A DNA stretch of 64,000 bases from Aurantiacibacter aquimixticola. Its GTDB lineage: Bacteria > Pseudomonadota > Alphaproteobacteria > Sphingomonadales > Sphingomonadaceae. How positions within the stretch are numbered: position 1 is the stretch's first letter; every line of letters begins with the position of its first letter. The stretch is taken from the NCBI RefSeq assembly GCF_003605475.1, contig NZ_RAHX01000001.1:1054001-1118000 (forward strand), read 5' to 3'. The notes under the pieces were generated by a model. That model did not search any database. It was not told the origin of the DNA and saw nothing but the letters and a program-made list of their open reading frames with translations. Shown here piece after piece: positions 2,623 to 64,000 of this stretch. Position numbers and translations under genes: made by a program.

Positions 2623-4233
2623 ATGAGCAGCAAGGCCCGCCTCGATATCCGTCAGGCTGAGATCGGCGATGTTCGACGCATCGCCGCGCTCGCGAAGCGT
2701 ATCTACGAGGATTTCGTACCCTACACGCAGAGCGAGATCCGCGGGCAGATCAACAATTACCCCGAGGGCTGTTTCGTGGCCGTGCTGGACGACAAGCTCG
2801 TCGGCTACTGCGCCACCATGCGCATCGGCGGGGACAAGGCGCTGCGCCCGCATAGCTGGGACGAGATCACCGGCAATGGTTATGGCTCCCGCCACGATCC
2901 GAAGGGCGACTGGCTCTACGGTTACGAGATGTGCGTCGACCCCAAGGTCCGCGGCACGCGGATCGGGCGGCGTTTATACGAAGAACGTCGCTTCCTGGCC
3001 GAGCAGCTGGAGCTGAAAGGCATCGTTTTCGGCGGCCGCATGCCGAACCTCAAGAAGAGCTGGCGCCGGGTGGAGGGACCGAAGGATTATCTCGACCAGG
3101 TAATCGCCGGGAAGATCCACGATCCCGTCCTGCGCTTCCAGCTCGCCAACGGGTTCGAGCCGATCGGTATTCTCGAAAAATACCTCCCGGAAGACAAGAA
3201 AAGTCGCGGCAATGCCGTGCAGATGGTCTGGCGCAATCCGTGGGTGGACCAGGAAGCAAGCCCGCAGGCCCGCGTGCCGCGCGGGGTCGAGAATGTTCGC
3301 GTCGCCACCTGCCAGATGCAGGCCCGCGCCGTGTCCGACTTCGACGAATTCATGGGCCAGGTCCGCTATTTCGTCGATGTCGCCAGCGATTACGAAGCCG
3401 ACTTCATCCTCTTTCCCGAGCTCTTCACGCTGATGCTGCTGAGCGCGGAGGAAGAGGAACTGTCCCCGCTCGAAAGCATAGAATGCCTGTCCGAATACAC
3501 GCCGCGCATCCGCGAGGCGCTTTCGGAAATGGCGCTGAAATACAACATCAACATCATAGGTGGTTCGCACCCGACGCGCATGGAGGATGGCGACATCCAT
3601 AACGTCGCGATGGTGTGCCTGCGCGACGGATCGATCCACGAGCAGGAGAAGATCCACCCCACGCCCAACGAGGCCTATTGGTGGAACATTCGCGGCGGCG
3701 ATGCGGTGGACGTGATCCAGACCGATTGCGGCCCGATCGGTGTGCTCATCTGCTACGACAGCGAATTCCCCGAACTCGCCCGCCGCCTGGCCGATGAGGG
3801 CGCGCGGATCATCTTCGTGCCATTCTGCACCGACAGCCGCCAGGGCTATATGCGCGTGCGCTATTGCTCGGCGGCGCGCGCGATCGAGAACCAGGTCTAT
3901 GTCGTGATGAGCGGCAATGTCGGCAATCTGCCCAATGTCGCGAACATGGACATTCAGTATGCGCAAAGCTGCATCCTGACGCCGTGCGACTTCCCCTTCG
4001 CACGGGACGGCATTGCGGCCGAAGCCACCGAGAATGTCGAAACGCTGACGATCAGCGACGTGAACCTGGCGGATCTCGCCTGGGCGCGCGCAGAGGGCAC
4101 CGTGCGCAACCTCGCGGATCGTCGCTTCGATCTCTATCGCATCGAGTGGGAACAGCGCGGCGCCGATGGCGGCGAAGCGACCGAACCGAGTGGCCCGCCC
4201 CCGCTGCATCAGCACGGGCCGGGCGGCGGCTAG
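2623..4233 (+). CDS. GNAT acetyltransferase fused to a carbon-nitrogen hydrolase
   Basis: A 536-residue two-domain protein. Residues 1 to about 205 form a GNAT-type N-acetyltransferase (acetyl-CoA loop region VDPKVRGTRIGRRLYE). From about residue 225 a nitrilase-superfamily domain follows, with the expected Glu (FILFPELFT), Lys (EKIHPTPNE) and Cys (GVLICYDSEFPE) triad. Fusions of this kind are known as bifunctional GNAT/carbon-nitrogen hydrolase proteins; the reaction is not established. An open frame continues upstream inside icd, but ATG 2623 lies just after the icd stop and begins the acetyltransferase domain, so it is the likely start. The tail is Gly/Pro/His-rich. Confidence 0.88.
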   Translation: MSSKARLDIRQAEIGDVRRIAALAKRIYEDFVPYTQSEIRGQINNYPEGCFVAVLDDKLVGYCATMRIGGDKALRPHSWDEITGNGYGSRHDPKGDWLYGYEMCVDPKVRGTRIGRRLYEERRFLAEQLELKGIVFGGRMPNLKKSWRRVEGPKDYLDQVIAGKIHDPVLRFQLANGFEPIGILEKYLPEDKKSRGNAVQMVWRNPWVDQEASPQARVPRGVENVRVATCQMQARAVSDFDEFMGQVRYFVDVASDYEADFILFPELFTLMLLSAEEEELSPLESIECLSEYTPRIREALSEMALKYNINIIGGSHPTRMEDGDIHNVAMVCLRDGSIHEQEKIHPTPNEAYWWNIRGGDAVDVIQTDCGPIGVLICYDSEFPELARRLADEGARIIFVPFCTDSRQGYMRVRYCSAARAIENQVYVVMSGNVGNLPNVANMDIQYAQSCILTPCDFPFARDGIAAEATENVETLTISDVNLADLAWARAEGTVRNLADRRFDLYRIEWEQRGADGGEATEPSGPPPLHQHGPGGG

Positions 4234-44123: not shown

Positions 44124-45338
44124 ATGTCCGATTTGAAAAGAGTGGTCCTCGCCTATTCTGGCGGCCTCGACACCAGCGTCATCGCCAAATGGCTGATGGT
44201 GGAACGGGGGCTGGAGGTCGTCACTTTCACCGCCGATCTGGGCCAGGGCGAAGAGATCGAGCCCGCGCGCGAGAAGGCCCGCGCGATGGGCATTCCGGAC
44301 GAGCACATCTTCATCGAGGACCTGCGCGAGGAATTCGTGCGCGACTTCGTCTTCCCCATGATGCGCGCCAATGCCCGTTACGAGGGCGATTACCTGCTCG
44401 GCACCAGCATTGCACGCCCGCTCATCTCGAAGCGCCTCGTCGAGATCGCGCATGAGACCGGCGCCGATGCCATCGCCCACGGCGCGACCGGCAAGGGCAA
44501 CGACCAGGTGCGTTTCGAGCTGTCGGCTTATGCGCTCGATCCTGACATCACCGTCATAGCTCCATGGCGCGAATGGGACCTGACGAGCCGCACGGCGCTG
44601 ATCGACTGGGCGGAGAAGCACCAGATCCAGGTGCCCAAGGACAAGCGCGGCGACAGCCCCTTTTCGACAGATGCGAACCTCCTGCACACCTCGTCCGAGG
44701 GCAAGGTGCTGGAGGACCCGTGGGAGGAGACACCGGACTATGTCTACTCGCGCACGGACCATCCGGAAGACGCGCCCGACACGCCCGAATATATCGAAAT
44801 CGCCTTCGAGCGCGGCGACGGCGTGGCGCTCAATGGCGAGGCGATGGCGCCTGCCGCCCTGCTTTCCGCACTCAACGATCTCGGCCGCAAGCACGGCATC
44901 GGCAGGCTCGATCTGGTCGAGAACCGCTTCGTCGGCATGAAGAGCCGCGGCATGTACGAAACGCCGGGCGGCGAGATCTACGCCCGCGCGCATCGCGGTG
45001 TGGAGCAGATCACGCTGGACCGCGGCGCTGCGCATCTGAAGGACGAGCTGATGCCGAAATATGCGGAGCTCATCTACAACGGCTTCTGGTTCAGCCCGGA
45101 GCGCGAGATGCTGCAGGCGGCGATCGACCTGAGCCAGGAGAAGGTGAGCGGCACCGTCCGGCTGAAGCTCTACAAGGGGCAGGCCATGGTCGTGGGTCGC
45201 AAGTCGCCGAACTCGCTCTATTCCGAGGCGCATGTTACCTTCGAAGACGATGCGGGCGCTTACGATCAGAAAGATGCGGCCGGCTTCATCAAGCTCAATG
45301 CCCTTCGCCTCCGTCTGCTGGCCAAACGCGACCGTTGA
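44124..45338 (+). CDS. argG: Argininosuccinate synthase
   Basis: A 404-residue enzyme joining citrulline and aspartate with ATP in arginine biosynthesis. The PP-loop [18 protein letters not shown] is at the N-terminus, and [14 protein letters not shown] and the family motif [12 protein letters not shown] follow. Length is typical (400-410). It is the last gene before the 830-base gap with the structured RNA. ATG 44124 has AGGAAG upstream. Confidence 0.97.
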
Positions 45339-45366
45339 CAGGCAATTTGCCGCAAACTTGCCGATA

Positions 45367-45440
45367 GTTTCGCGCGAAACGCCGAGACGTGGACTTATCC
45401 ACCTCTGTCCACTGGCATTTGCGCCATAAGTGGATAAGTC
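45367..45440. other. parS-like palindrome and inverted DnaA-box-like pair
   Basis: GTTTCGCGCGAAAC (45367-45380) is a perfect 14-bp palindrome that matches the parS core GTTTC-ACGT-GAAAC except in the central four bases. It is followed by GACTTATCCAC (45392-45402) and its exact inverse GTGGATAAGTC (45430-45440), each holding TTATCCAC, which is eight of nine bases of a DnaA box. Alternatives are a regulator-binding site or the promoter region of the RNA that follows. Confidence 0.45.
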
Positions 45441-45485
45441 GACGCTGGCGCCCTTGCCCGACTCGGTGCCCGCGCGCATTCTCAA

Positions 45486-45970
45486 ATCATCGAAGACGGA
45501 AAGTCTCCGCCACGAAGGATCGCCTGCCGATCTTGATACAGGAGAGACACGGAAGTGTTCGACGCGATGATCGCACTGTTCTCGGTGGAGGAAAGGAAGA
45601 TGGAAGGTCTTTTCGAAGACTGGACGCCAACCGGACCGTTGAAACCAGGACAGTCGTTCATCGGATAGGCCGGAGAAGAAATCCGGCGTCGAGGTTTGCA
45701 GAAGCACTCCGGTGCGGAAGCAACCGTTCGAGACGCCGTGAGGACGAGACCGGTCTCGGGCGGGTGGAAAGACGCGGCTGAGATCGCTTGCGATTTCGCC
45801 AGTCGGAAAGCCCGATCCGGCACCGGCGCGAGCGCCGGGCGACATATTCGGAAGGAAAACGACACTTCGGTGTCGTCGCCCTGAAGAAGACACGCCAGGC
45901 GCCAAGTATCCCTTCGGGGGTCCACACGCCGGTGAGAGTGGGGTCGGCAGCGATGCCGGCCCCATTTCTG
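45486..45970 (+). ncRNA. Candidate large structured non-coding RNA
   Basis: About 480 bases without a credible gene but with a chain of strong hairpins on the plus strand. A first domain is closed by ATCATCG (45486-45492) with CGATGAT (45565-45571) and encloses hairpins with GGAAA, CCTGC and GGAA loops. Then come GTCTT-TTCG-AAGAC (45607-45620), a 7-base-loop hairpin (45669-45687), a long compound hairpin (45685-45737), 45745-45758, a bulged 10-bp hairpin (45776-45800), 45823-45838, a 7-bp stem with UUCG loop (45859-45876), 45908-45921 (UUCG) and a terminator with a GCGA loop. I count 19 GGA against 6 TCC. Loops of stable type (GNRA, UUCG) fit the plus strand only. I do not recognise it as RNase P, tmRNA, SRP or 6S RNA. 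Confidence 0.7.
45940..45963 (+). terminator. Terminator ending the structured RNA
   Basis: GGGGTCGGCA and TGCCGGCCCC form a 10-bp stem (one G-U pair) capped by a GCGA tetraloop, followed by ATTTCTGTTGTGT. It is the last of the hairpins and marks the 3' end of the transcript. The sequence from 45971 to 46172 shows no further structure that I can support. Confidence 0.8.
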
Positions 45971-46172
45971 TTGTGTACCACAGGCGCAACCATCTCTCAC
46001 TCCGTCGACCGATTCGAAGCGCCGTTTGTCCGGTTCTAGGGTGTGTAGGACAGCCCGCTCCACGCGCTTCGCCGTATTACCGCCCCATTCTTCCGGTGAA
46101 GCGAGCCTCTTCGCCGACAGGCCGATCCTGCGGTTTGGAATGATTTACCAATGTCCGGTATCTGCGCCGCCC

Positions 46173-46757
46173 ATGGACGGGAACTCCACCAAACGCTTGA
46201 CGCCGCGCGCGGTCGCCGTGCTCGCAGCCATTGCGCTGCTGGGCAGCACGGGTGCGGGCTATGCCGAGCAGAGCCAGGAGCGCGTCGACCTCGCAGCCGA
46301 GACGACCGCCACCGAAGCCGCGCCCGCCGGACCGGTCTTCACGCCCAGCGACGAGGCCGAGTTCGCCGAGGCCTTCAACGCCTTCGACGAGCCGGTGGAG
46401 CCTGCCATCCCCGATCACGCCGTCGACATCACCACGATCGAGCCGGCCGCTCCGCCGCTCAGCACCTCTCTCGGTTCGGGCATCGCCAGCTACTACGGTC
46501 GCCGCTTCCACGGTCGCCGCACGGCCAATGGCGAGCGGTTCGACATGAACGCGATGACCGCCGCCCACAAGACGCTGCCCTTCGGCACCAGGGTGCGGGT
46601 GACCAATCCGCGCAGCGGCCAGTCCGTCGTGGTGCGCATCAACGATCGCGGACCGTTCACGCCGGGCCGCACGATCGACCTCAGCCGCGCCGCCGCGACC
46701 GAGATCGGCCTGATCCGCCGCGGCCACGGCAATGTGGAGCTCGAGCTGCTCGACTGA
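46173..46757 (+). CDS. rlpA: RlpA-like septal-ring lytic transglycosylase
   Basis: A 194-residue protein. A hydrophobic leader ([18 protein letters not shown]) is followed by a Glu/Ala/Pro-rich linker (about 30-90) and a C-terminal double-psi beta-barrel RlpA domain: [39 protein letters not shown] and [21 protein letters not shown]. It includes the catalytic Asp in NDRGPF. RlpA cleaves naked glycan strands at the septum. There is no SPOR domain. ATG 46173 is preferred; ATG 46140 is an alternative. Confidence 0.88.
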
Positions 46758-46765
46758 GCGGCCCG

Positions 46766-48025
46766 TCAGCGGCTCCCCGCCGACCCACTCCCTTCTAGCC
46801 CGGGCACCTCAGTGTCGCCCTCCTCCAGCTCCGCCAGCGTCAGCGTCCACCACGCGTCCTCCCCCGCCTCGAACGCCGCCATCTGCACCATTTCGAGATC
46901 GCCATCGGGATCGCCGCCCGGCTGCTCGTGCGGCTTGGGAGCGCCCGCGGGCCGCGCCGCATCCATCCGCTCCAGCCGGTTGCCCAGCCACATGCAGTCG
47001 TCCGAGGTGAGGTGCACCGCCTCGTCCTCCTCCGCATCCGTGCACAGGCCCCCGCAATCGGGGCAGGGTGTGACAGGTGTGACAGTGTCCTGAGGCAAAT
47101 CCGCATCCGCCCCTTCGCCCGCCCGTTTCCGCGCCTCGGCACGCGCCGCCTCGGCCTCGGCGAAGCCGCGCGGATCGGCGATGAGGTCGCGCGCGTCCTG
47201 CGCCTCCCGCAGCGCCTCGGCATCGACCCGCTCGGGCATCACGGCATCGGCATCCGCGCCATCGCGCAGCGCGTCGATCCAGTCGTCGAGCTGCGGCAGC
47301 GAGGCCGCGACGTCGAGCCGCTCGGCCGCCTTGTCGAGCCGCGCCAGATGCGCCAGCAGCAGCCGCGCATCGTAGCGCCGCCGCGACCCGACCTCCTCGC
47401 CATGGTAATAGACCGTCTCCTCCACCCCGTGGATCGCCCGCTCCGCCAGCTCGCTCTCCGCCACGGTGCGCGCCGCGACCAGCGCCGCGTCCCACGCGCG
47501 AGCGAACCCCGGATGCCGCCGCCGCGCGCGATAGGCCGTCTGCCGAGCGATCCCCGCCCGCTTGCAGGCGATGGAGACATTGCCGAGCGTCTGCATGGAG
47601 ACGAGAAAATCCGCCATCCGCGCCCCGGTAAGCGCTTCGGTGGAGCCGAAGGTGCGCGGAGCCGGAGCGGGTGTGGGATGCTCCTGCGGCTTGGAGCCTT
47701 CGCCGGTGGCATGCCCCACAGCGGCGCCGGTCGCAAGCTCCGGAGACCGAGGCGCAGCCGAGGCAAGGCCGACCGGCCGCCCGAGCTCTTGCGAGGAGCC
47801 AAGCGGACGGATGTCCGCGCCCGGCGCTTGAGGGACCGACAAATCATCGGGGTGGGCGTTTGCATTACCTCGCTCCGGATCGACCACAGGCACCTTCAGA
47901 TAATACCCATGCTCGTCGAGCACCCGCTGGAGCTTCTCCTCCGGCGTTTCCCCGGTAAGCGGATTGCGCCCATCGGGAATATCGCCGGGCATCGAGAAAC
48001 GGTCGAAACGGGTCTGGTCGGTCAT
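46766..48025 (-). CDS. Large HTH-containing hypothetical protein
   Basis: A 419-residue protein. The middle part (about residues 135-185) holds a helix-turn-helix-like segment, FLVSMQTLGNVSIACKRAGI then RQTAYRARRRHPGFARAWD, resembling the small-subunit terminase/resolvase type HTH. N-terminal and linker regions are low-complexity (Pro, Ala, Gly), and there is a Cys-x2-Cys (CPDCGG) with a further Cys, possibly a zinc knuckle. One copy of the 26-bp dispersed motif lies within this gene. ATG 48025 has AAAGGA eight bases upstream. Convergent with rlpA, eight bases apart. Function unknown, possibly DNA-binding. Confidence 0.65.
   Translation of the reverse strand: MTDQTRFDRFSMPGDIPDGRNPLTGETPEEKLQRVLDEHGYYLKVPVVDPERGNANAHPDDLSVPQAPGADIRPLGSSQELGRPVGLASAAPRSPELATGAAVGHATGEGSKPQEHPTPAPAPRTFGSTEALTGARMADFLVSMQTLGNVSIACKRAGIARQTAYRARRRHPGFARAWDAALVAARTVAESELAERAIHGVEETVYYHGEEVGSRRRYDARLLLAHLARLDKAAERLDVAASLPQLDDWIDALRDGADADAVMPERVDAEALREAQDARDLIADPRGFAEAEAARAEARKRAGEGADADLPQDTVTPVTPCPDCGGLCTDAEEDEAVHLTSDDCMWLGNRLERMDAARPAGAPKPHEQPGGDPDGDLEMVQMAAFEAGEDAWWTLTLAELEEGDTEVPGLEGSGSAGSR
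47067..47092 (+). repeat. 26-bp dispersed motif, copy 3, inside a coding sequence
   Basis: GGTGTGAC-AGGT-GTGACAGTGTCCTG, one base different from copy 1 in its 26 bases. Read on the minus strand it encodes QDTVTPVTP within the HTH protein, immediately before the CPDCGG segment. A repeat in a coding frame suggests that it is a mobile or recombining unit, or that it has a binding function strong enough to be kept. Confidence 0.8.
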
Positions 48026-48101
48026 GGCATGCATCCTTTGCGTTGGGTCCGAAAGAACCGCGCAGGGAGGCACATTTGCGGGGATGTAGGAAAGAACCGA
48101 T

Positions 48102-48131
48102 TTGACACATCCGCAACTCTGCGAAAACAAT
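48102..48131 (+). promoter_or_regulatory. Probable sigma-70 promoter of the NACHT gene
   Basis: TTGACA (48102-48107) is a perfect -35 box, and AACAAT (48126-48131) a 4/6 -10 box, with an 18-base spacer. It points to the NACHT gene 68 bases downstream and lies in the gap between the divergent HTH gene and the NACHT gene. Confidence 0.55.
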
Positions 48132-48198
48132 AGCGCCATACCTATTCATATCGTTTCGGGTTTCCAGACGCGGGCTCTTTCAATAATCAAGGATATAT

Positions 48199-50037
48199 AT
48201 GGCTCTCGGAGAAGCAGCAGCAGCAGCAGCAGCAGTTAAAGTCGTCGATGCGGCAGCCCCTAGACTTTTAACTCGCGTCGGCCGTCGCGTGTCAAAAAGT
48301 GTGGAGCGAACCAAGGTTCTCCTTACTAAAACATTTCAAAACCATTTAGAGGCCAGCAATTTCCGCGCGCGATGGGTAAAGACTATTGTCTCAAAAGACA
48401 AGCCAGTAGATTTGGAGAATATTTACGTCGGCCTTCTACTTGAAAACGAAGTCGACGGATTAATCGCAGACAGCGATATCGACCCAACGGAGAATCCAGG
48501 TTCTCGAGTAATCGTAAGTGGTACAGGAGGTGCTGGTAAAACAGTTTTGATGAAAAAGCTTCTTCTGGATGGATTTGAGAATAGGCAAGGTCTTATTCCG
48601 CTTTTTGTCGAATTAAGAAATCTGTCATTCGATGGAGAGATTCCTCTAGCAAAGCTGATATTCGAAAACTTGGCAGACGAGGGAGGTCCCGAAGGATACT
48701 CGCTATTCGAGACTGCGTTGGAAGAGGGTCTTTTCCCAATCTTCCTAGACGGCTTCGACGAGATAAACCCAAACTTGATCGACGGTGCAACAAAGCAGAT
48801 TTCTAAGTTTTCTAGAAAATATAAAAAATGCTCGATAATTATATCAACGCGCCCTGGCACTGGCATTCATTCGCTCACAGACTATTCGGTATATCATTTG
48901 CAACCACTCAGCAAAGAACAAGCATTAGAGCTCATCGAAAAGACACGCTTTGAGGCGGTCTCGAAGTCAAAGTTTTTGACGGCCCTAAAGGATGGACTAT
49001 ATGAAAAGCATCAATCGATGATGTCCATTCCGATATTGGTTGTCATGATGCTTCTTACGTTCAGAAGCTATGGCGAGATTCCAAGCCGAATGACCGTTTT
49101 TTACAGTCAGGCTTTTGACACGCTTTACTCAATCCATGATGCTGAGGGGAAAGAGTCATATAAGCGAGTGCACGATTCCGGCCTTCCTCCTGACCAATTC
49201 AGACTGGTCCTAAATGCATTTTGCTATTCGTCTCTTTGCGAGTATGAGATTGAATTTAATCGTGAGAGCCTAGAATTGTTTGTATCCAAAGGGATTCGAA
49301 TAGCTCGAGCAGAGTGCAGTACCAAAGAGTACATTTCCGACCTTATAAAAAATGTGTGCGTTCTCCAGCCAGACGGTCTGAGCTATCTTTTCGTTCATCG
49401 GTCGTTTCAGGAATACTTTGCTGCAACATTTGTAAGTAGATACTCAGGAAAAAAGCCTTTCGCAGCTTACGACCAGCTAATACGGATGACGGGACCAGAT
49501 CTGCACCAGATGCTCGTTGAGATTGATCGCCCCAAGCTCTATCGACAATGGCTACTTCCGAAGCTCGAGAAATATTACGAAACGCTGGATGCAATGAAAA
49601 GCAAATCGGCGATTGAGAAATTCAATTTGTTCGCTGCGAGTCTTGTTGTCAGGACATCGGACTACGCTATACCGTACGGAATGGCTAGAACTGACTTCAC
49701 AATAGAAGGGCTTACACTCGCCCATATGACTGACACTACTATTTCGCCAGCAACACTGATCCAAGGCGTGAAATTTTCTGATCAAGACCTGAAAAAAATA
49801 CAGGGAATTGCAAAGAAGACGCCTCCACGTAGTATTTCAAAAGGTGATGGGACTGGAGCTGTTGTGCAAATAGCGCGTCACTATATTCAGCTTTCTAAAA
49901 ACGAAGTTAGTATGATCGGGAGGAGCAATTTTGATGGCCTCTTTCGGGCATATCTGAGCGCCGTTGAGGATCAGCTATCGAAAATCCGAGAGATTGTCGC
50001 AAAGGATGTGATAGTTGAGGATTTGATTTTCGATTGA
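48199..50037 (+). CDS. NACHT-domain NTPase (candidate anti-phage defence protein)
   Basis: A 612-residue STAND-type ATPase. Walker A is GTGGAGKTVLM with Lys114; Walker B is FPIFLDGFDEI with Asp184, Asp187 and Glu188, matching the NACHT pattern. After the NTPase core comes a helical region with the motif FVHRSFQEYFAATF (His400), common in bacterial NACHT proteins, then a C-terminal region of about 180 residues with no repeats I recognise. The N-terminus has a (GCA)7-encoded Ala run and no identifiable effector domain. Bacterial NACHT proteins (bNACHT) protect against phage. GC content is far below that of all neighbours (23 of 60 bases in 48541-48600), so it was acquired. AAGGA precedes ATG 48199. 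Confidence 0.88.
   Translation: MALGEAAAAAAAVKVVDAAAPRLLTRVGRRVSKSVERTKVLLTKTFQNHLEASNFRARWVKTIVSKDKPVDLENIYVGLLLENEVDGLIADSDIDPTENPGSRVIVSGTGGAGKTVLMKKLLLDGFENRQGLIPLFVELRNLSFDGEIPLAKLIFENLADEGGPEGYSLFETALEEGLFPIFLDGFDEINPNLIDGATKQISKFSRKYKKCSIIISTRPGTGIHSLTDYSVYHLQPLSKEQALELIEKTRFEAVSKSKFLTALKDGLYEKHQSMMSIPILVVMMLLTFRSYGEIPSRMTVFYSQAFDTLYSIHDAEGKESYKRVHDSGLPPDQFRLVLNAFCYSSLCEYEIEFNRESLELFVSKGIRIARAECSTKEYISDLIKNVCVLQPDGLSYLFVHRSFQEYFAATFVSRYSGKKPFAAYDQLIRMTGPDLHQMLVEIDRPKLYRQWLLPKLEKYYETLDAMKSKSAIEKFNLFAASLVVRTSDYAIPYGMARTDFTIEGLTLAHMTDTTISPATLIQGVKFSDQDLKKIQGIAKKTPPRSISKGDGTGAVVQIARHYIQLSKNEVSMIGRSNFDGLFRAYLSAVEDQLSKIREIVAKDVIVEDLIFD
48214..48234 (+). repeat. (GCA)7 trinucleotide run in the NACHT gene
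   Basis: Seven perfect GCA triplets encode seven Ala residues at positions 6-12 of the NACHT protein. Changes in copy number would alter the N-terminal helix length without a frameshift. Confidence 0.85.
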
Positions 50038-63549: not shown

Positions 63550-63652
63550 AAAACCTCCTATCATAAACGAACATGCCGCTTATGACGGAGGGAGCGCGGG
63601 CATGCGCTCTCCCGCTCGCTATCGGTGCACCCCGCCCGGCAGCAAAAGCGAC

Positions 63653-63821
63653 CGTCACCCGGCAGGTCTCCTGGCTCCCGGATCGTCGGTCCGCTTCCGC
63701 CTTCCCGCCCCGAAGGGCAGTGGCATGAAGGAAGCATCCCTCCCCGGTCACAGTTGCGGGGGCAGCGGAGGTCTTGCACCCCCTTCCCTCTCAGCTTCGC
63801 CTTCGCGAAGAACCCGTGACG
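63653..63821 (-). ncRNA. Cobalamin riboswitch
   Basis: On the minus strand the hallmark elements appear in order: GGTGCAAG, GCTGCCCCCGCAACTGTGA, GCCACTG, GGGAAGGC and the B12 box AGCCAGGAGACCTGCC (plus positions 63662-63677). P1 is closed by CGTCAC (63821-63816) with GTGACG (63658-63653). It precedes the btuB start by about 100 bases and should reduce receptor and transporter expression when adenosylcobalamin is abundant. Confidence 0.95.
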
Positions 63822-64000
63822 ATGGCCGCGCTCTAGTCCCGGTGGTGAAATGGTGCAAGGTTAAGGCGCGCGCATTTTGCGTCCCGCAGTGGCACGCAGC
63901 GCGCGGCGAAGGTGCCTGTTAGTCTTTCGCCCTTATGATGCACGTCCGTGCATCAGCCGCCGATCATCCCCGCCGCACCCGCGCGCGATTTCCGCACGAA
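63822..64000. other. End of window, no gene assigned
   Basis: Upstream promoter region of the cobalamin operon. A plus-strand frame starts at ATG 63935 (or GTG 63948 in another frame) and runs off the window, but 50-65 bases are too few to support a gene. Confidence 0.4.

Follow-up and report, generated by a model that had tools for sequence, protein, structure and literature searches.

A probable gene for a large structured RNA between argG and rlpA in Aurantiacibacter aquimixticola and related sphingomonads

The window analyzed here is a stretch of 64,000 nucleotides of the Aurantiacibacter aquimixticola genome (contig NZ_RAHX01000001.1, positions 1,054,001 to 1,118,000 of the forward strand), in which argG and rlpA follow each other on the plus strand (Table 1). 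The open reading frame listed for rlpA begins with a TTG at 46026, and the conserved start is probably the ATG at 46173. Between the argG stop and this probable start lie 834 bases (45339–46172), in agreement with the gap of about 830 bases described in a first-pass annotation of the same DNA. There, the annotation had placed a large, heavily structured plus-strand RNA of unknown class, a proposal that is supported by covariation and by the lack of any Rfam match at threshold. We are highly confident that 45486–45970 is a real RNA gene, conserved and structured, judging from sequence-level support which comprises a kept position, a conserved promoter, a terminator-like end, a multi-domain fold with compensatory changes, a plus strand in which no coding signal was detected and the presence of a single copy in the 2.55-Mb genome of the organism. 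Its status as an RNA gene and its fold are well supported; its transcription, regulation and function are what we infer. The 5′ end, at about 45488, is predicted from the position of the promoter. Beyond rlpA, the window holds a 457-aa open reading frame on the minus strand (46769–48139) that no Pfam family matches at E 0.001, followed on the plus strand (48199–50037) by a gene for a 612-aa protein in which Pfam recognizes a NACHT ATPase domain, a domain often found in regulatory or defence proteins.

Table 1. Features of the argG–rlpA interval and of the RNA gene predicted within it (positions in the window), with the loci of similar build
Feature	Coordinates	Strand	Evidence or remark
argG, argininosuccinate synthase	44124..45338	+	Pfam Arginosuc_synth and Arginosuc_syn_C; upstream neighbour
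Three DnaA-box-like repeats	45395..45437	+	TTATCCACC 45395-45403, CTGTCCACT 45405-45413, inverted AGTGGATAA 45429-45437
Predicted core promoter	45454..45482	+	-35 TTGCCC 45454-45459, 17-bp spacer, -10-like CATTCT 45477-45482
Putative noncoding RNA, about 480 nt	45486..45970	+	Fold, homologues, covariation; 5′ end predicted from promoter
Long-range helix 45564-45572/45656-45666	45564..45666	+	9/9 pairs changed on both sides; 86% of cells paired
Enclosed helix	45581-45588/45642-45649	+	8/8 pairs changed on both sides; 81% of cells paired; significant pair 45588-45642
Compound hairpin domain, closed by 45668-45674/45749-45755	45668..45755	+	6/7 closing pairs changed on both sides
Covarying hairpin	45782..45794	+	45784-45792 is the strongest covarying pair
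Conserved 3′ domain	45814..45967	+	Hairpin 45824-45837 or alternative long-range pairing; stem enclosing 45906-45923; terminator
Terminator hairpin (14 bp, 45936-45967) and short U-tract	45936..45970	+	Stem formed in 104/104
rlpA (DPBB_1 domain)	46173..46757	+	Pfam; downstream neighbour
Look-alike loci			L265, L266, L270, L277, L278, L280-L282, L297, L300, L305, L308, L309, L311, L312

Relatives of the RNA were collected by several searches. Using 45480–45985 as query, blastn found matches in 68 of 199 family genomes, mostly restricted to the 3′ third. Thirty loci obtained with two extraction patterns (22 + 8) formed alignment A1; all 30, the locus described here included, display the order argG–RNA–rlpA on the same strand. 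Among 396 genomes of the order, 115 gave scores of 67–138 bits with a covariance model of the 3′ domain (R1, 45814–45967) built from 30 copies; the next score was 43.6 bits. The model reached at least 67 bits in 13 of the 14 genomes listed for the genus itself. The larger tally of 203 at E 0.001 takes in weak matches, while 115 counts only the rows at ≥67 bits; as some weak matches, for example those in G305 (38.9 bits) and G302 (36.7 bits), are real divergent copies, 115 is a lower bound. Across 289 genomes of the class, R1 exceeded 44 bits only in three family members, and eight genomes outside the family gave weak matches. When named genomes were scanned for the terminator motif, at least 119 stretches were returned, and among the matches listed 80 named titles belong to Erythrobacteraceae genera or carry higher-rank labels (Sphingomonadaceae, Sphingomonadales, Alphaproteobacteria); Qipengyuania flava and Erythrobacter ramosus are among the species in which the motif occurs. 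The viral contigs searched yielded nothing. The RNA family is thus far known from Erythrobacteraceae and some neighbours.

Among the matches listed, argG and rlpA flank the RNA in this order in 99 of 119 stretches, and 17 of the other 20 are short of room on one side. Two of the remainder (L079 and L187) keep the RNA motif and argG, although no rlpA was found in the stretch of at least 1 kb that follows, and one has rlpA and lacks argG despite sufficient room. On the other hand, in a genome of the same genus (G384, locus L222) argG is followed by rlpA, and neither the RNA nor the upstream element was found in the 600–720 nt examined. This is an apparent clean loss and, since argG and rlpA are there without it, the RNA is apparently dispensable at least in this genome.

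For the comparative analysis, 204 loci, which overlap between searches, were reduced to 135 distinct and then to 104 non-redundant full-length copies, 447–606 nt long (median 516). The 204 loci were picked by the exact terminator motif and 196 of them also by the upstream element at ≤5 substitutions, so that the sameness of terminator and upstream element is partly by construction; among the eight loci without the element, six are cut by the locus ends and the other two are L170 and L187. No coding signal was detected on the plus strand, whose longest stop-free frame has a median of 106.5 aa compared with 109.5 aa in shuffled sequences; on the minus strand the stop-free frames exceed the shuffles (157 vs 135 aa).

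No Rfam 15 family reaches its gathering score on the RNA, either in the window or in 14 divergent loci, so none of RNase P, tmRNA, SRP and 6S RNA, of which the first-pass annotation had seen no signature, scores at threshold here or in the relatives. In the interval 45100–46200, mir-4436, mir-4449 and skipping-rope appeared at lax E-values, and a scan at E up to 2 of nine related loci, drawn from eight genomes, yielded asX4; all these matches were sub-threshold and were discarded. The skipping-rope RNA (RF02924) aligned weakly to 45485–45572, with 17.1 bits (E 0.7) where the gathering score is 36.7, and did not appear in the nine related loci; being below threshold and absent from them, the match was taken as chance. 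Elsewhere in the window, a Cobalamin riboswitch on the minus strand (63643–63832, 121.7 bits) is the only Rfam match at gathering level.

The claim that the plus strand is heavily structured is borne out by the folding energy, which amounts to –215.5 kcal/mol compared with –190.5 on average for shuffled sequences (z –4.4; none of 100 shuffles as low); the minus strand gives z –2.3. Upon removal of the terminator, the mean z over 35 of the 104 sequences is –1.8 for the plus and –1.3 for the minus strand, the former lying below the latter in 21 of the 35. Because this terminator-free excess stability is modest, the case rests on covariation and not on energy. RNAalifold applied to the 104 copies produced a consensus fold of 112 pairs, and covariation was measured by a G-test with APC against 15 null alignments from a home-made tree-aware procedure (FastTree tree, Fitch reconstruction, substitutions reallocated to random columns). 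In this check, akin to one that the first-pass annotation had called for, eight pairs are significant at E<0.05 and seven of them belong to the consensus fold. The eighth, 45496–45556, lies outside it and is a plausible further pair; column pairs outside the fold appear from E ~0.07–0.2 upward, the first at 0.07.

The best-supported parts of the fold are two nested helices, the closing helix of the compound hairpin domain, the covarying hairpin (Table 1) and the hairpin 45906–45923. The tetraloops which had been read from the sequence (GGAA, UUCG twice and GCGA) are indeed where they had been placed, as is the AGAA/GGAA internal loop; the latter is part of the compound hairpin domain, which also contains the significant pair 45688–45734. 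The 7-bp stem that had been proposed to close a multi-branch domain fared differently. AUCAUCG at 45486–45492 is perfectly complementary to CGAUGAU at 45565–45571, but its pairs are kept in only 45–94 of the 104 copies, and this poor conservation led us to reject the stem as domain closer. Instead, 45564–45572 pairs with 45656–45666, and every one of these nine pairs is changed on both sides.

The 3′ domain is the part best conserved in sequence and would be the likely core of the RNA. In its alignment 96.2% of the cells are paired, compared with 35–49% when the partners are slid, and 62 cells carry double changes as against 18.6 in shuffles, none of 500 shuffles being as high. Four GC-rich strands (within 45822–45841, 45893–45902, and 45925–45933) can form two mutually exclusive pairings, both of which are largely kept, a possible conformational switch or else an ambiguity of the fold. 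Short stretches such as CCAAG (45902–45906) and CCAC (45922–45925) are conserved as well. At the very end, the stem of the terminator is formed in all 104 copies; however, the terminator had been described as canonical and its U-tract, CAUUUCUGUU, is weak. Divergent copies have other terminator stems, changed by compensating pairs (by eye). The tip of the hairpin, GGCNGCNATGCC, occurs four times in the window (positions 4009, 24862, 25228, and 45946) with 0.72 expected, and was rejected as a marker of the family; the weak R1 matches at L267 and L271, which by eye sit just after other genes, also count against it. This sequence, examined here at 45946, may be one that terminators of these genomes favour.

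Among the new clues to the RNA, the promoter is the most informative. Its predicted core is preceded by three repeats resembling the DnaA box, the consensus of which is TTATNCACA. In their commonest forms boxes 1 and 3 agree with eight of the nine consensus positions, position 9 being mostly C or T, not A. The whole upstream element, TTATCCAC-N4-GTCCAC-N16-AGTGGATAA, has one exact match in the window with none expected, and at ≤3 mismatches it is found in 47 of 149 family genomes compared with 1 in the backward control, a count in which some near-palindromic places were scored on both strands. Allowing ≤5 substitutions, the element lies 537–696 nt before the RNA end in 196 of the 204 terminator-motif loci. 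Of the 135 distinct copies, 125 have the TTG of the –35 at 16 bp after the element, six have it 11 bp nearer and one at 17 bp, while in three it is replaced by TGG; the six with the shorter distance may belong to a single clade and thus reflect one event. A stricter promoter pattern matched in 10 of 157 genomes and another in 7 of 196, both with zero control matches, and TCCACAG...CGACTC alone is not specific (24 of 196 genomes matched vs 17 in the backward control).

The predicted core promoter also contains a GANTC (CcrM) site, GACTC at 45460–45464. A GANTC occurs within 34 bp of the –35 TTG in 80 of the 104 copies, at a distance of 5–6 bp in 65, and is missing from the scanned 34-bp stretch in 24. 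Overall, 74 of 103 promoter cores carry the site with 11 expected from shuffles; in the RNA bodies it is rare (0.36 per kb). Throughout the window GANTC is depleted 5.6-fold (58 sites, where dinucleotide shuffles predict 325), as though every site that is left mattered. GcrA is encoded in all 13 genomes searched, the one studied here included, in a search whose control matched Caulobacter and, unexpectedly, Sulfolobus. In Agrobacterium, promoter GANTC sites are reported to affect the expression of replication genes (PMC11514494).

Divergent copies with the same promoter occur in other genomes, which blastn had missed or R1 had scored low. From 35 divergent candidates we used the 21 in which both ends could be parsed and dropped 14; these 21 and 40 of the 104 family sequences served as targets of profile comparisons after promoter and terminator had been trimmed off. 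The family profile recognized all four divergent copies linked to argG, with E-values from 1.7e-34 to 2e-12, as well as the two g96 copies (E 2.9e-6 and 0.006), which the divergent profile matched at E 1.8e-17 and 3.3e-9; shuffles gave at most 8.1 bits. On the contrary, in this trimmed comparison g76, g77, and g91 show no clear body similarity to the family. For instance, the g76 profile scored 6.5 bits on one g50 copy and 4.8 bits on one g91 copy with a best shuffle of 3.2, the others being at shuffle level. As judged from their bodies, these copies remain probable look-alikes which share promoter type and terminator style.

Similar frames of promoter and terminator, spanning ~350–730 nt where parsed, occur in other sphingomonad genera, and the bodies tested are without clear similarity. 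In several of these genera an TTATCCACA box and a CGACTC core are separated from a similar terminator by a body of ~350–730 nt. One might imagine a replication-coupled large sphingomonad RNA whose promoter, gated by DnaA and GANTC methylation, is kept more deeply than the RNA body, and whose gene shell persists while that body is rebuilt; we consider this doubtful. Were it true, the RNA would form part of a cell-cycle RNP and have no equivalent in the RNA classes known. At L291, L292, L294, and L296, in genomes from three other families of the order (f8, f5, and f6), a CGACTC core preceded by a DnaA-box-like TTATCCACAGG is also seen 48–162 nt upstream of uvrC (Pfam).

Large structured RNAs are few in bacteria, and several form unusual RNP or RNA-only assemblies (PMC12286853, PMC11706538). 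The RNA described here resembles OLE, GOLLD, ROOL, and raiA/ModT in being large, stand-alone or intergenic, and structured, with functions which in those cases are largely unknown or only recently approached (PMC12286853, PMC11706538). It differs from them in that it has been seen so far only in sphingomonads, changes its sequence fast outside the 3′ domain, and has DnaA-box-like repeats in its promoter. As to the Rfam search reported above, it covers OLE, GOLLD, ROOL, and raiA/ModT so far as Rfam holds them, and none reached threshold here. Similar in its proposed tie to the circuit of replication and cell cycle is another alphaproteobacterial noncoding RNA, the Caulobacter cell-cycle RNA CcnA, reported to act on the ctrA and gcrA leaders; however, CcnA is described as 182 nt long, located in the replication origin and presumably activated by CtrA, a description that sets it apart from an RNA of ~480 nt at argG (PMC8959179). 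The alphaproteobacterial stress sRNA GsrN has no apparent gene in Erythrobacter litoralis according to PMC5869019. A survey of novel RNAs in 50 bacterial genomes does not mention sphingo-, Erythrobacter, Novosphingobium or argG in its main text (PMC11109978), and the titles and abstract beginnings listed by searches of open-licence papers contain no description of an argG–rlpA RNA. As far as searched, the family is therefore undescribed.

Considering these results jointly, we lean towards a real RNA gene whose transcription is coupled to replication or the cell cycle and whose product acts in trans. A sigma70-type promoter would transcribe the RNA from about 45488 to the terminator, while DnaA, by way of the three box-like repeats, and CcrM methylation or GcrA, by way of the GANTC in the promoter core, would couple its synthesis to replication or the cell cycle; for this coupling, deduced from motifs, the arguments are evenly balanced. 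Because the shape is kept while most of the sequence is replaced, and because the RNA is independent of rlpA, action in trans by protein binding seems most likely: the RNA may be an RNP scaffold or a binder of a protein other than CsrA, and we slightly favour such a protein-binding mode over an antisense one. The exception of CsrA concerns the earlier suggestion of a sponge of the CsrB/RsmX type, which would titrate CsrA/RsmA through GGA motifs. Like the CsrB and RsmX/Y/Z sponges, the RNA is long, has many hairpins and is rich in GGA; of the counts that had prompted the suggestion, the 19 GGA in 45486–45856 stand, but TCC occurs 4 times there and reaches 6 only over the whole of 45486–45970. 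Over 104 relatives (49.8 kb), GGA outnumbers TCC 1972 to 477 and attains 1.26 times its dinucleotide expectation (z 14.2); nevertheless CGG (1.39), AAG (1.42), and GGT (1.49) surpass it in enrichment, and no concentration of GGA in loops is seen, its mean unpaired probability being 0.46 compared with 0.37 for all triplets, 0.65 for GAA and 0.61 for AAG. Moreover, those sponges use CsrA, and the csrA/rsmA search which had been proposed as a check detected PF02599 in none of 59 family genomes, the present one included, while the controls E. coli, B. subtilis, and T. maritima were positive. With CsrA not found and GGA neither specially enriched nor exposed, a sponge is hardly conceivable. The main rival to protein binding is instead antisense action in trans, in which the RNA would pair, like CcnA, with a few mRNA leaders (e.g., those of cell-cycle genes) through conserved unpaired stretches. 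Promoter signals resembling those of the cell cycle, the precedent of CcnA on the ctrA and gcrA leaders (PMC8959179) and conserved short stretches such as CCAAG and CCAC would fit this mode. However, long conserved single-stranded seeds are not evident outside the 3′ domain (by eye, in the alignment portions examined). Typical antisense sRNAs are, in addition, shorter and less structured than this RNA, and we hold the antisense mode to be possible, though on the unlikely side.

Given that among the matches listed the RNA lies on the same strand upstream of rlpA in 99 of 119 stretches and ends in a terminator-like hairpin, it could be a cis-acting leader, a riboswitch or an attenuator, whose terminator stops transcription before rlpA. 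Yet L079 and L187 keep the RNA with rlpA undetected in at least 1 kb downstream, G384 keeps argG and rlpA without the RNA, no complementary anti-terminator strand could be spotted by eye, and the usual leaders are much smaller; a role as rlpA leader is accordingly very improbable. Similarly, the DnaA-box-like element could be a site of chromosomal DnaA control, as datA and DARS are, which the promoter of the RNA merely adjoins. Three box-like repeats in a fixed geometry, at a single place in each of the matching genomes listed, would suit such a site. Against it stands the spacing to the –35, which measures 16 bp in 125 copies out of 135 and is shorter by 11 bp, about one helical turn, in six: a fixed distance with a helical-turn variant is as expected for a promoter-bound factor. 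We regard a control site that the promoter merely adjoins as improbable, although the two readings of the element can both hold.

Coming back to the protein-binding RNA with a replication-linked promoter that we favour, its gene is single-copy, syntenic and apparently dispensable in at least one species, and is therefore deletable and testable in marine relatives that are not pathogenic. A noncoding output of the replication cycle was not found for Sphingomonadales among the listed titles and abstract beginnings of open-licence papers. If DnaA and CcrM/GcrA truly read this promoter, the RNA would be such an output of the alphaproteobacterial replication cycle.
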